Below are positions 2,884-7,560 of a stretch of DNA of 9,696 bases, piece by piece. Position numbers and translations under genes: made by a program. Under the pieces are notes generated by a model. It was not told the DNA's origin. It did no database searches and worked only from the letters and a program-made list of their open reading frames with translations. The first letter of the stretch is position 1. Each line of letters opens with the position of its first letter. This DNA is from Deltaproteobacteria bacterium RBG_13_61_14. GTDB lineage: Bacteria > RBG-13-61-14. The stretch lies in assembly GCA_001797815.1 (NCBI GenBank), contig MGQK01000009.1, positions 33,544-43,239 of the forward strand. Reading direction: 5' to 3'.

Positions 2884-3807
2884 TTGGCCTCGGAAGCAAG
2901 TTTTTTCTCGCGGCTGCGCCAAGGGCTGAGCAAGACCCGCGACCAGTTGGCCGGCCGGCTGGATCGGCTTTTGCCCAAGGGCCGCCAAGTGGACGCGGCC
3001 TTGCTCGAGGAGTTGGAAGAAGCGCTGGTCACTTCCGACCTGGGAGTGAAAACCGCGGTCGAGCTCATGACCGGCCTTGGCGCCGCGGTCAAGCGAGAGG
3101 GGCTGGAGAGCGCCGAGGACCTCAAGGCTTACCTGCGCCGGGCCATCCTCGAGATCCTGCAGCCGGTGGAAAAGCCGCTGGAAGTGCCCCGGCTGGACCG
3201 GCCCTGGGTGCTGCTCGCGCTCGGCGTCAACGGCACCGGCAAGACCACCACCATCGGCAAGATCGCGCTCCGCCTGCGCCAGCAAGGCCGCTCCGTGCTC
3301 CTGGCCGCGGCCGATACCTTCCGTGCCGCCGCCATCCAGCAGCTCGAGATCTGGGGCCAGCGCGCCGGCGTCGAGGTGATCAAGCACCAGGAAGGCGCCG
3401 ACCCGTCGGCCGTGGCCTTTGATGCGATCAAGGCGGCGCAGAGCCGCGGGGTGGAAGTGGTGATCATTGATACCGCCGGCCGGCTGCACACCCGGGTCAA
3501 CCTGATGGAGGAGTTGAAGAAGGTGAAGCGGATCGTGGCCCGGGAGCAGCCGGGCGCGCCGGATGAGGTGCTGCTGGTGCTCGACGCCACCACCGGCCAG
3601 AACGCGCTCGCGCAGGCCAAGACCTTTCACGAGGCGATTGGCATCACCGGGCTCTGCCTGACCAAGCTCGACGGCACGGCCAAGGGCGGCATCGTGATCG
3701 CCATCTCCCGCGAGTTCGGAATCCCCATCCGTTTGATCGGCGTGGGCGAGCAGATCGAGGACTTGCAGACCTTCCGCGCCGAGGAATTTGTCCGGGCTTT
3801 GATCTGA
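2884..3807 (+). CDS. ftsY: FtsY, signal recognition particle receptor GTPase
   Basis: FtsY is the SRP receptor. It binds the Ffh-ribosome-nascent chain complex and delivers inner-membrane proteins to SecYEG. The 307-residue protein has the N domain (about 1-100) and the G domain. Seen directly are the P-loop GVNGTGKTT (114-122), DTFRAAA (144-150), DTAGR (196-200), DATTGQ (234-239), TKLDG (260-264) and the closing [12 protein letters not shown] (286-297). The acidic A domain of enterobacterial FtsY is absent. The N-terminus begins with an amphipathic stretch ([13 protein letters not shown], 7-19) typical of the FtsY membrane-targeting helix. The start is TTG, supported by GAGG (2874-2877) 6 nt upstream; no ATG lies between it and the conserved N domain. 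It follows the small membrane protein gene by 19 nt. Its stop codon directly abuts the stop of the convergent GMC gene. Confidence 0.97.
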
Positions 3808-3814
3808 CTAGATC
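3801..3814. repeat. inverted repeat centred on two abutting stop codons
   Basis: GATCT (3801-3805) and AGATC (3810-3814) are perfect inverted repeats around a 4-nt centre. The centre and inner edges contain both the ftsY TGA (3805-3807) and the GMC TAG, read on the minus strand from 3810-3808. The stem is short and AT-containing and has no flanking T-run, so it is at best a very weak bidirectional terminator and may be fortuitous. Confidence 0.35.
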
Positions 3815-5319
3815 CGCGTCTGAATATAGTCCGCGAAATGGGCGGCGAGCGCCATGATGGTGACCTGGGGGTTGACCCCGGGCGCGTTGGGGAAGACCGA
3901 GGCGTCGGCGATGAACAGGTTTGGGAGGTCGTGGCTCTCGCCGTGGGAGTTGACCACGCCCCGTCCCGGCCGCTCCGACATCCGGCAGGTGCCCATGGGG
4001 TGGTTGCCGATGGGGTTGAAGGCCGTCGGCCGGAGGTTGGCCTCCGCGATCAGACGGGTCTCGCTTGGGTCGTTCAACTCCTTAGGCAGACCGTAAATTC
4101 CGGGCGTCACCTTTCTCGCGCCGCCGGCAAAGAGCAGGTCTGCGGTGGCTTTCATCGCCTTCTGCATCAGGCTCGCGTCGCGCTGGCTCATGGAGTATTT
4201 GATCGCGGGGCTCCATCCCTTTCGCCGCGCGGTCACCGTGCCGGTGGAAGTGGCCCGGATCATCGCGCCCCAGCCGGCGATGTGTTTCAACTTCGCCATC
4301 AGGTTCTTGTGGTAAAGCCCGAACCCGGGCGCGCGGATGCCGATCACGTCGGGCGGGGCCCAGAAGCTTTCAATCATGAATCCGTCTTTGCGGAACTGGT
4401 CGCAGCAATAGCCCTGGCTGACCCCGTCCCAGGCGTTCACCACCTCCTCAAAAAACCCGAGCATGCCGGTGCCGGTGTGGTTGCAGAGGTTCTTGCCCAC
4501 CAGGCCCGAGGAATTGGCCAGGCGGTTCTTCTGCAGGAGCACCGGCGTGCCCATAGTTCCGCAAGCGAGGATCACGGCCCTGGCCCGCGCTTCCAGCCGG
4601 TGCTTGGGCTGCTCGGTCTTCCGGTCCAGGACCCATCCGGCCACGCCCACGGCTTTGCCCGACTCGACTAAAATTCCCTCGATCCGGCAGTCGGTGTAAA
4701 GCTCGCCCCCGAGTTCGAGGAAGGCGGGGACAAAGGTGCGGTCGGTCGAGAGCTTGGCGCCCTCGATACAGCCGGACATGCACAGCCCGCAGCCCTTGCA
4801 GCCGCGGGAGTTGCGGCGGATGACTTGTCCTTCCCAGCCTTTGGCCTGGCAGGCCCGGCGCATGAGCAGGTTGTTTTGGCCCAGGTATTGCTCGTCATCC
4901 GGAGAGATGTTGAGGAACTCCTCGATCTCTTCAAAGAGGGGCCGGAGGATATCCGGGGACAGGTCTTGCAGCCCCTCCTGCGCCACCCATTCTTCCAGCA
5001 CCTCGTCCGGAATCCGGAAACAGATGGCCGAGTTGACCAGGGTGGTTCCGCCCACGCACTTGGCCTGCATGGTGGGGATGATCATGGTGCCGACCATGGC
5101 GCGCAGGCCCTGGTCGCGGTAGAGCTGGCGCATGGCCGCCCAGGAGTCGGTGTGGAAATCCGAGGGCTGGTAATAGGCCCCTTCCTCCAGCAGCGCCACC
5201 GCCTTGCCGGCGCGCTGCAACCGATAGGCGGCCGCGGCCCCGCCCGCGCCCGAGCCGACCACCACCGCGTCCACGTCGAGCCTGACCGGGCCGGAGACAG
5301 AAGCGAAGTCGTGGATCAC
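3808..5319 (-). CDS. GMC-family FAD-dependent oxidoreductase with CxxCxxCxxxC motif
   Basis: This 503-residue flavoenzyme of the glucose-methanol-choline family probably oxidises an alcohol to an aldehyde or ketone. The N-terminal FAD-binding loop is GSGAGG (22-27), with an acidic LLEEG at the end of the second strand (43-47). The flavin-contacting CVGGTTLVN follows at 88-96. The C-terminal catalytic pair is His440 (in NHPMGTCRM) and Asn483 (in GVNPQVTI). Cys174, 177, 180 and 184 form a ferredoxin-like CxxCxxCxxxC; a related cysteine segment occurs in GMC proteins of the long-chain alcohol oxidase type, but whether it binds a cluster is unknown. I chose GTG 5319 because its start overlaps the stop of the upstream gene as GTGA and precedes the Rossmann fold by a normal length. 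A longer frame from 5454 would overlap that gene by 139 nt. No Sec, Tat or TM segment is visible, so it is cytoplasmic. It is the last gene of the minus-strand cluster. Confidence 0.9.
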
Positions 5320-5711
5320 GCCGGCTTGCCTCCGCACTTCTCGAACCAGCCCAGGTGCGCGAGCACTTTCGGATCTGAATAATAACCCATGCCGAAGAGG
5401 GTCTTGAGCAGGACCACCACCATCCGCCGCCAGTAGATGCGGCTTTCCTGCCAATCGTCGAGGTAGCGGTCCTGGTCGGGCTCGGGCAGGTTGACGAACC
5501 GGCGCGGCCGGCCGATGAAGAGGAGCGGGGACAAGTCCAAGGCGACCAGCATCGCTTTCAGCCCCAGGCCGGCGCCGGCGGGAAGCTCGCGGAGGTAGTT
5601 CTCCAGGAAGGCGAGGCAGTGGGTATCGGCGACCGAGTAAGGAATGTCTCCGCCAGGCGGGATGATGCGGTTGGCCAGAGACTGCGCCACCCGTTTAAGA
5701 TAAGGACCCAT
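5316..5711 (-). CDS. small subunit-like protein (gluconate 2-dehydrogenase subunit 3-like domain)
   Basis: This 131-residue, helix-rich protein contains ANRIIPPGGDIPYSVADT (13-30), DLSPLLF (59-65), an RPRRF/LPEPDQDRYLDDW segment (68-87) and a YYSDP motif near 115. This resembles the extra N-terminal domain fused to some GMC alcohol oxidases and the small subunit 3 of gluconate 2-dehydrogenase. In this operon it is a separate protein translated immediately before the GMC subunit, with a 4-nt GTGA stop/start overlap. That strongly suggests translational coupling and a stoichiometric complex. Unlike typical periplasmic subunit 3 proteins it has no Tat signal. The start at ATG 5711 is uncertain: the only good Shine-Dalgarno (AGGAG, minus strand, about 5736-5740) lies 24 nt upstream, and an in-frame TAG overlaps it. 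The family call is from recalled similarity, not a search. Confidence 0.72.
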   Translation of the reverse strand: MGPYLKRVAQSLANRIIPPGGDIPYSVADTHCLAFLENYLRELPAGAGLGLKAMLVALDLSPLLFIGRPRRFVNLPEPDQDRYLDDWQESRIYWRRMVVVLLKTLFGMGYYSDPKVLAHLGWFEKCGGKPA

Positions 5712-5726
5712 GTTCGAGAGCCGGAT

Positions 5727-5754
5727 CGGGCGTAACTCCTAGCAGGATCGCCCG
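5727..5754 (-). promoter_or_regulatory. intercistronic hairpin presenting an AGGAG in its loop
   Basis: On the minus strand CGGGCG (5754-5749) pairs with CGCCCG (5732-5727), a 6-pair GC stem around a 16-nt loop. The loop holds AGGAG, the only strong Shine-Dalgarno upstream of the small-subunit gene. The ATG follows 15 nt after the stem. Folding would shorten the effective distance between AGGAG and the ATG. It lies in the 57-nt gap after the ferredoxin gene, and a regulatory role is inference. Confidence 0.3.
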
Positions 5755-5768
5755 GGAAAGTCAATGGT

Positions 5769-6581
5769 TCACGAAAGTTCCACCCGCGGCGTCAGGCGGG
5801 CAATCGCCCCTTGGACGAACCGGCCCGGATCCACGGTCATCTTGATGGCCTGCTCCGGACAGACGTCCACGCAGCGGCCGCAGCCCCGGCAGGCCTCGCT
5901 GATCACGGCCCGGTCGCCGTCCAGGCGGATGGCGTCGGCAAAGCAGACCTGGTCGGCGCAGATCCCGCAGCCGGTGCAGCGCTCGGTCACCGCCACCGTC
6001 ACCCCGGGCATCCGGGTGATCCTGGCGCTGATCCCGGGCGAAAGGTGCGGCAGCGCCCGCCACAGGCAGCAGCAGGGGCAGCAGTTGCAAATGGTCATCA
6101 GCTTGTGGCCCGGGCCCACGCCCAGCCAGACGGTGTCCAGCTTGTTGCGGCCGATCAGGTGGACCAGCCCGGCCTCCCGGCATTTCCGCGCGTGCGCCAG
6201 CGCCTCCGCCTGGCTCACGCGCCGGCCGAGTTTGGGATTGATCCCCATCGCCGCTTCGCCCAGGAAAAGACAGCCCAGGTCCCGGGGATAATCTTGGCAG
6301 TGCATGGCCTCCCGGCAGATGCAGGCGTCCATGATCCAGAGGTAGTTGGCCTGGCGGATGAAATGCTCCACCACCCGGGAAGGGACCACCGTTTCCTCCG
6401 GCCGCTCCACCGACTGCTCGATCGGGATCACCTGGTCCTTGGCGAGCACGATCAGGTCATCGCCCTCGAACAAGGCGTGATCCATCAGCCGCCCCAGCCC
6501 CGGCACCCGGGTCAGCCGGGCCAGGGTGAACCGGTGGGGGAAGCCCTTCTTGATCAGCTCGACCACCCAAAGGGGAATCAT
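5769..6581 (-). CDS. cysteine-rich dicluster ferredoxin-like protein
   Basis: A 270-residue iron-sulfur protein with 19 cysteines. The C-terminal part is a two-cluster ferredoxin domain: CTGCGICADQVC (Cys202, 205, 208, 213, with four rather than three residues before the last Cys) and the canonical CRGCGRCVDVCP (Cys231, 234, 237, 241). The N-terminal 200 residues carry two further groups, DACICREAMHC with Cys87, 89, 95 and 104, and ICNCCPCCC with Cys165, 167, 168, 170, 171 and 172. I recall similar unnamed 4Fe-4S proteins with these motifs in anaerobes, but know of no demonstrated function. ATG 6581 is preferred because AAGGA (minus strand, 6592-6588) sits 6 nt upstream. The frame continues open to an ATG at 6743, but that extension is A/T-richer and carries no motif. 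No signal peptide or TM helix is visible, so it is cytoplasmic. By position it is the likely electron acceptor of the downstream GMC enzyme. Confidence 0.85.
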   Translation of the reverse strand: MIPLWVVELIKKGFPHRFTLARLTRVPGLGRLMDHALFEGDDLIVLAKDQVIPIEQSVERPEETVVPSRVVEHFIRQANYLWIMDACICREAMHCQDYPRDLGCLFLGEAAMGINPKLGRRVSQAEALAHARKCREAGLVHLIGRNKLDTVWLGVGPGHKLMTICNCCPCCCLWRALPHLSPGISARITRMPGVTVAVTERCTGCGICADQVCFADAIRLDGDRAVISEACRGCGRCVDVCPEQAIKMTVDPGRFVQGAIARLTPRVELS

Positions 6582-6587
6582 GATCGT

Positions 6588-6616
6588 TCCTTCCGCAAAA
6601 TGATATTCAGATGCGG
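6588..6616 (-). promoter_or_regulatory. ribosome binding site and adjacent inverted repeat before the ferredoxin gene
   Basis: AAGGA (minus strand, 6592-6588) lies 6 nt before ATG 6581 and decides that start. Immediately upstream, CCGCA (6597-6593 region) and TGCGG (6612-6616) form a 5-nt inverted repeat with a 14-nt AT-rich centre. In the mRNA this would be a small hairpin just before the Shine-Dalgarno; in DNA it could be an operator half-site pair. The RBS is solid; the role of the repeat is speculative. Confidence 0.45.
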
Positions 6617-6750
6617 ATGAAAATTTCCGGCCCGAGATCGGCCCGATCGCTTCGCCTTCCGGCGGCAACACATTGATATCAAGAAAATCGCCGGCGGCGA
6701 TTGGATTCCGGCTCAAACCCAGGCCCAAGAGTCCCGCTCCCATCTCGCGC

Positions 6751-6781
6751 GGCCCGGTCTGGAGCCGGGCCTGGCCCCAGG
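6751..6781. repeat. GC-rich hairpins downstream of the SDR gene
   Basis: GGCCCGG (6751-6757) and CCGGGCC (6765-6771) form a perfect 7-pair stem with a 7-nt loop. CCTGG (6770-6774) and CCAGG (6777-6781) form an overlapping second one. They lie just after the SDR stop on the minus strand, in the 217-nt gap before the ferredoxin gene. No T-run follows on the minus strand, so they are more likely mRNA-stabilising or partial-attenuation structures than a full terminator. The rest of the gap shows no clear promoter. Confidence 0.35.
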
Positions 6782-6798
6782 GCCGCGCCCGGGAGGGC

Positions 6799-7560
6799 TC
6801 ACAGCGCCTTGACCGTCATCCCCCCGTCAATCACCAGCACGTTGCCGGTAATGAAAGAGGCTTCGGCCGAGGCGAAAAAGGCCACGGCGCCGGCCACGTC
6901 TTCCGGCACTCCCAGCCGGCGCATGGGCACGCCCTTGAGCATCTTTTCCCGGAACTTTTCGTCCGAGAGCAGGGGCTTTAGCATCTCGGTCTGGATCGGC
7001 CCGGGGCAGACCGCGTTCACCGTGATGCCGAAGCGCGCCAGCTCGACCGCGTTGGCCCGGGTGAGGCCGAGCACGCCCGCCTTGGTCGCGCTGTAAACCG
7101 GAAGCAGGCCCGAGCCGCGGATGCCCTCCACCGAGGAGAGGTTGATGATCCGGCCGCGGCCGCTCTGCTTCAGGTGCGGCACCGCGGCCCGGGTCACCCG
7201 CAGCACGCCCTTCAGGTTGACGCTGAACACCCGCTCGATCTCGGCGTCGGTCACGCTCTCGATGAACGCCGCGCTGCTCACGCCCGCGTTGTTGACCAGC
7301 ACCTCCAGGCCGCCGAAGGCCCGGACCGTCTCTGCCACCATGCGCTCCACCTCCGCCGGCACGGTGACATCGGCCCGGATGGCAAAAGCGTCGCGGCCCA
7401 GGTCTCGGATCAGGGCGGCGGTCTCGGCCAGCGGCTCTTCCTGGATGTCGGCCGCCGCCACCCGGCATCCGCCCTCGGCCAGCCGCAGGGCAATCGCCCG
7501 GCCGATGCCCCGGCCGGCGCCGGTCACCAGGGCGCGGAGGCCCTGCAAGCCCGTGTCCAT
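6799..7560 (-). CDS. short-chain dehydrogenase/reductase (FabG-like)
   Basis: A 253-residue classical SDR. The cofactor motif TGAGRGIG is at 13-20, NNAG at 90-93, and the catalytic tetrad is Asn115, Ser143, Tyr156 and Lys160 (in YSATK). PGPIQTEM and the closing FITGNVLVIDGG are typical. Asp38 at the end of the second strand favours NAD(H) over NADP(H). The length matches the family's usual 250. ATG 7560 was chosen because GGGAGGGG lies directly upstream and the fold begins at residue 8; a longer frame to 7650 is not needed. It leads the minus-strand cluster. FabG (3-oxoacyl-ACP reductase) cannot be excluded, but no other fatty acid synthesis gene is nearby, so an alcohol/ketone dehydrogenase linked to the GMC enzyme is at least as likely. 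The 217-nt gap to the ferredoxin gene leaves co-transcription open. Confidence 0.93.
   Translation of the reverse strand: MDTGLQGLRALVTGAGRGIGRAIALRLAEGGCRVAAADIQEEPLAETAALIRDLGRDAFAIRADVTVPAEVERMVAETVRAFGGLEVLVNNAGVSSAAFIESVTDAEIERVFSVNLKGVLRVTRAAVPHLKQSGRGRIINLSSVEGIRGSGLLPVYSATKAGVLGLTRANAVELARFGITVNAVCPGPIQTEMLKPLLSDEKFREKMLKGVPMRRLGVPEDVAGAVAFFASAEASFITGNVLVIDGGMTVKAL

Follow-up and report, generated by a model that had tools for sequence, protein, structure and literature searches.

A leaderless SMALL-GMC gene pair, predicted to encode a cytoplasmic FAD/[3Fe-4S] dehydrogenase, beside a labile ferredoxin neighbour

Does the GMC-type dehydrogenase encoded in a 9696-bp stretch of DNA from Deltaproteobacteria bacterium RBG_13_61_14 (hereafter the window, meaning the whole stretch analysed) work inside the cell and, if so, to which acceptor does it pass its electrons? 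The question is raised by four minus-strand genes within positions 3808-7560, referred to here as SDR, FER, SMALL and GMC, which lie where a preliminary description of the sequence had placed them. That description envisaged a cytoplasmic alcohol dehydrogenase reducing an iron-sulfur (Fe-S) carrier, the ferredoxin-like protein FER. The lack of leaders is confirmed and a cytoplasmic location is probable, whereas the role of FER as a dedicated acceptor is not supported, FER orthologues being unlinked to GMC or present in GMC-free genomes. Judging from sequence comparison, SMALL and GMC likely form a two-subunit, leaderless cytoplasmic dehydrogenase with flavin adenine dinucleotide (FAD) and a [3Fe-4S] cluster, resembling the gamma-alpha core of BcGDH, the FAD-glucose dehydrogenase of Burkholderia cepacia, and this enzyme probably oxidises alcohols in the cytoplasm. 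The host genome (4.7 Mb in 132 contigs, 95% complete) was compared within its phylum with two other genomes, G001 and G002, both lake-sediment metagenome-assembled genomes.

SMALL (5316..5711, minus strand) encodes a leaderless, Gluconate_2-dh3-like GMC companion of 131 residues, and GMC (3808..5319, minus strand) a catalytic subunit of 503 residues with a GTG start (GMC_oxred_N, E 9e-44; GMC_oxred_C, E 4e-25); the two genes overlap by 4 bp (GTGA). The suggestion that SMALL is a partner subunit of GMC proved well founded. SMALL was found in 48 genomes of a sample of 386, and in all 30 loci inspected, with about 1.5 kb seen on either side of SMALL and genes called simply as longest open reading frames, a GMC gene was adjacent or fused to it (30/30, of which four loci belong to the order of the window or to a genome examined before). 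For most GMC paralogues of the host, G001 and G002, too, SMALL is encoded immediately upstream or forms the N-terminal part of a fusion, and natural SMALL-GMC fusions occur in G001, G037 and Myxococcales. Unlike SDR and FER, SMALL and GMC stay linked in both phylum-mates. Matches of 9 of 18 SMALL family members to Gluconate_2-dh3 (PF13618), at E values up to 0.1 and with a best value of 6.4e-12, support the assignment of SMALL as a putative member of that family. Searching the PDB with a SMALL profile yielded no meaningful match, and a single-sequence match to a pilin (E 0.016) was treated as chance. Several related loci depart from the simple pair: L058 and L111 of Myxococcales (L058:6702-9389) carry an extra N-terminal stretch of about 250 residues in frame before the SMALL-GMC fusion, while in the host genome one GMC paralogue in which SMALL was not detected is followed by several CxxCH-rich, multihaem cytochrome-like open reading frames (L064, G000:C46, 6054-11829) and another by genes for a nucleotidyltransferase, a HEPN protein and an aldehyde ferredoxin oxidoreductase (L071, G000:C81, 5920-10468).

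The catalytic subunit contains a cysteine cluster that had been overlooked earlier, C174-x2-C177-x2-C180-x3-C184. Three of these residues, spaced C174-x5-C180-x3-C184 and accompanied by the extra C177 (4768..4800, minus strand), are predicted [3Fe-4S] ligands on the basis of alignment A2 and the register with BcGDH. Across the 18 sequences of this alignment, C174, C180 and C184 are kept in every row that covers the region, C177 is variable, and one incomplete row (L110) does not extend over the cysteine stretch; the C-x5-C-x3-C spacing is also present in the GMCs of 29 of 30 further SMALL loci. A comparison of the GMC family profile with PDB chains ranked BcGDH and fructose dehydrogenase (FDH) at the top (E 1.9e-43) with their cysteines aligned, the columns of C174, C180 and C184 falling on Cys212, Cys218 and Cys222 of BcGDH. 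In that enzyme these three residues are the [3Fe-4S] ligands, and a fourth cysteine forms a disulfide with the small subunit (PMC6719666). Since the conserved cysteines match the BcGDH ligands in register, the electron wire is predicted to run within the GMC subunit itself and not through a separate ferredoxin, with Cys174, Cys180 and Cys184 holding the putative [3Fe-4S] cluster. The conserved catalytic His/Asn region is present as well, H440 and N483 being invariant across the 18 GMC sequences.

As the preliminary description had observed, none of the four genes shows an export signal. Nine codons before SMALL there is an in-frame stop, and the intervening sequence lacks a start codon, which leaves no room for a leader, and the N-terminus of GMC leads straight into the FAD-binding motif, again without one. 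The leader test was able to detect twin-arginine (Tat) signals, because such motifs are plainly seen in some other members of the SMALL family, many further members being leaderless. In L162, L166 and L171, SMALL bears a single N-terminal membrane helix with basic residues just after it; by the positive-inside rule this would place the enzyme on the cytoplasmic face and suggests a membrane-anchored, cytoplasm-facing form. On a quick FastTree phylogeny of the GMC parts, the Tat-exported, membrane-anchored and leaderless forms largely occupy separate branches: the location labels, assigned with a simple rule based on motif and hydrophobicity together with reading, require 4 changes, as against a mean of 13 and a minimum of 9 when they were shuffled 500 times. 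The window GMC groups with the leaderless and membrane-anchored forms. Among linked genes there is no multihaem cytochrome, as neither the window nor the ~13 kb flanking it on each side contains a called open reading frame with at least two CxxCH motifs. SMALL-GMC likely lies on the cytoplasmic side of the membrane. The leaderless branch is noteworthy because one study describes the Tat signal as conserved rather widely across the subunit-3 family (PMC10924467). This branch is widespread and unlike the studied exported relatives; many bacteria may thus carry out FAD/[3Fe-4S] chemistry intracellularly and use another acceptor.

Studied enzymes of the BcGDH and FDH kind are exported and feed cytochromes, hence their use in glucose sensors. 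The best solved relative of the window GMC is the gamma-alpha form of BcGDH (PDB 6a2u, 8hdd and 8grj), with which it shares the C-x5-C-x3-C motif in register with the [3Fe-4S] ligands, a small-subunit partner and the conserved GMC catalytic region. The differences are that the window SMALL has no Tat leader, that no beta-subunit with three haem c is encoded nearby, that a cysteine is missing at the Cys213 disulfide position, and that overall identity is low. The large subunit of Gluconobacter FDH (PDB 7w2j) is the second-best solved relative of the GMC profile. FDH is exported and tied to a cytochrome c subunit, whereas the window enzyme appears not to be exported and is not linked to such a subunit. 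The likeness of the SMALL family to gluconate 2-dehydrogenase subunit 3 includes partnership with a flavin dehydrogenase, but the twin-arginine leader of the latter (PMC10924467) is absent from the window SMALL and many of its relatives. With the mycofactocin-linked GMC protein MftG and the cholesterol oxidases, only the GMC fold is common, the matches being weak, partial and far under NCBIfam cut-offs. Of the features typical of the BcGDH/FDH type, the locus thus has the GMC fold, the cluster cysteines and the adjacent small subunit, and lacks the Tat signal and a linked multihaem cytochrome.

By analogy with these enzymes, alcohol would be oxidised at the FAD, on the His440/Asn483 side of GMC, and the electrons would pass to the [3Fe-4S] cluster near the surface, where SMALL would pack by the cluster and stabilise it. 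Because there is neither a Tat leader nor a linked multihaem cytochrome, the cluster would have to donate to an acceptor on the cytoplasmic side of the membrane; the quinone pool or some other membrane-bound acceptor is the likeliest candidate, and a soluble Fe-S protein a less likely one. A quinone or membrane acceptor is preferred over ferredoxin because some relatives are membrane-anchored, because FER is lacking elsewhere, and because the potential of alcohol oxidation (about -0.2 V) fits badly with that of low-potential ferredoxins (about -0.4 V).

Several points weigh against a cytoplasmic enzyme of this kind. The Tat-bearing member L108 shares a tree branch with the window, and SMALL-GMC may leave the cytoplasm as a hitch-hiker of a Tat protein encoded elsewhere. 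The window SMALL itself falls under the Pfam cut-off for Gluconate_2-dh3 (17.7 versus 23.4 bits), and two structure models, both built on shallow alignments, are of too low quality for judging the fold or the interface: that of SMALL has a predicted local distance difference test (pLDDT) score of 53, and that of a naturally occurring SMALL-GMC fusion a pLDDT of 37. Finally, we infer the Fe-S cluster, the FAD and the activity of SMALL-GMC from sequence, and the choice of quinone as acceptor is likewise our inference.

Of the two remaining genes, FER (5769..6581, minus strand; 270 residues) precedes SMALL in the same orientation at a distance of 57 bp, and SDR (6799..7560, minus strand) is located 217 bp upstream of FER. 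The preliminary description proposed all four genes as a candidate module and named, among the observations that would speak against it, that they are not neighbours in related genomes. This is largely what was found, and the module is rejected: G001 and G002 each carry orthologues of SDR (72 and 69% identity), FER (60 and 58%) and GMC (71% in both) on different contigs. FER and SDR are separate neighbours and not conserved parts of the SMALL-GMC unit. That FER is nevertheless the dedicated acceptor of SMALL-GMC, so that alcohol oxidation reduces a cytoplasmic ferredoxin, would agree with its position just upstream of SMALL and with FER-family genes beside GMC in two other lineages, one being a genus of another phylum with the gene order GMC-aldehyde dehydrogenase-FER in three genomes, and the other G001/G002, where a long-form FER immediately precedes a short GMC. 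In the host genome, too, a long-form FER is found 32 bp upstream of a flavoprotein gene, a GlpA-like glycerol-3-phosphate dehydrogenase with a BFD-like [2Fe-2S] domain (L123, G000:C68, 3114-5833). Two independent GMC adjacencies of the FER family against 0.04 expected (rough Poisson estimate with the window excluded, P ~8e-4) are suggestive only, because gene counts are approximate and the loci were gathered by FER similarity. Such a pairing is nonetheless unlikely. The closest FER orthologues do not adjoin GMC in G001, G002, G046, G072 or G093; in G001 and G002 their neighbours are a histidinol dehydrogenase or a carboxylesterase gene. Six of 82 genomes of another phylum have FER orthologues (54-60% identity); two of the six, G046 and G072, carry them at 54-58% identity, yet contain no GMC gene by family search. 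FER is present in 7 of the 386 sampled genomes and coincides with SMALL only in the window's own order, no SMALL being found in the four FER-bearing genomes of the sample that lie outside it. Conversely, the Myxococcales genome G141 has 8 of these GMCs and no FER-like gene, and no FER-type gene stands beside any of the 30 inspected SMALL loci within the sequence seen. The mismatch of potentials described above speaks against the pairing as well. The GMC near FER in G079-G081 belongs to a different GMC subfamily. A broader version, in which the FER family is a general intracellular acceptor for flavoprotein alcohol dehydrogenases and the window GMC feeds FER in a cytoplasmic flavin-to-ferredoxin route of alcohol oxidation, seems similarly improbable. 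An incomplete literature search found nothing relevant on GMC enzymes with ferredoxin or in anaerobic use.

The opposite possibility, that the genes are neighbours by chance, SMALL-GMC being the sole functional unit and FER and SDR having unrelated redox or regulatory roles, is compatible with a leaderless SMALL-GMC dehydrogenase, and the balance for and against it is about even. It accords with the separate contigs of the SDR, FER and GMC orthologues in both phylum-mates, with the 217-bp gap between SDR and FER, and with the varied neighbours of the FER family over about 50 loci, which, judged by eye from sequence starts, include apparent acyl-CoA dehydrogenases, an SDR-family protein, a molybdopterin oxidoreductase and HypB. 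However, the four genes are co-oriented and in tandem, and the FER family recurs beside flavin dehydrogenases. A further alternative concerns the enzyme and not its neighbours, namely that GMC uses oxygen, as an oxidase of the kind that acts on cholesterol or long-chain alcohols. Its best NCBIfam match is indeed a cholesterol oxidase, although a weak one (103.5 bits against a cut-off of 850), and choline oxidase comes first in a single-sequence PDB search. But the family profile puts the Fe-S dehydrogenases BcGDH and FDH first, and GMC has the cluster ligands of these enzymes and a small subunit, which makes an oxidase very improbable.

FER itself is the iron-sulfur protein with 19 cysteines that the preliminary description had recognised. 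It combines a cysteine-rich domain with two [4Fe-4S] ferredoxin motifs (5859..5978, minus strand) that match Pfam Fer4 families, Fer4_7 above its cut-off, and involve C202, C205, C208 and C213 together with C231, C234, C237 and C241. Across 11 short-form homologues 18 of the 19 cysteines are invariant, eight in the ferredoxin part and ten in the cysteine-rich domain. The latter (6066..6323, minus strand), an uncharacterised domain of the form CxCR-x5-C-x8-C ... CNCCPCCC whose cysteines are invariant or nearly so in alignment A6, has no match in Pfam, NCBIfam or PDB. The same domain (CxCR...C...C...CNCCxCCC), with nine or ten invariant cysteines, also occurs in L120, L123, L124, L125, L128, L142 and L152. 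Long-form relatives of FER have an added N-terminal winged-helix-like part, with TrmB matches in two members. The family is present in many copies per genome, and in one locus three of its genes surround an apparent molybdopterin oxidoreductase (L151, G026:C98, 3442-9281). Besides the identity of the acceptor, this many-copy ferredoxin family with its undescribed domain is the second question raised by the locus.

SDR encodes a FabG/glucose-1-dehydrogenase-like protein (Pfam adh_short_C2, E 2e-68; NCBIfam subfamily PRK07231 above cut-off). In G002 its orthologue stands, judged by eye, beside an apparent iron-type alcohol dehydrogenase and an aldehyde ferredoxin oxidoreductase (L106, G002:C775, 1055-5271). 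A consensus scan for sigma-70-like promoters found none in the region, a result that says little, and a viral-contig scan gave no matches. On the other side of the four genes, FtsY is encoded on the plus strand (2884-3807 of the window), convergent with GMC, and its final base adjoins the GMC stop codon with zero spacer.

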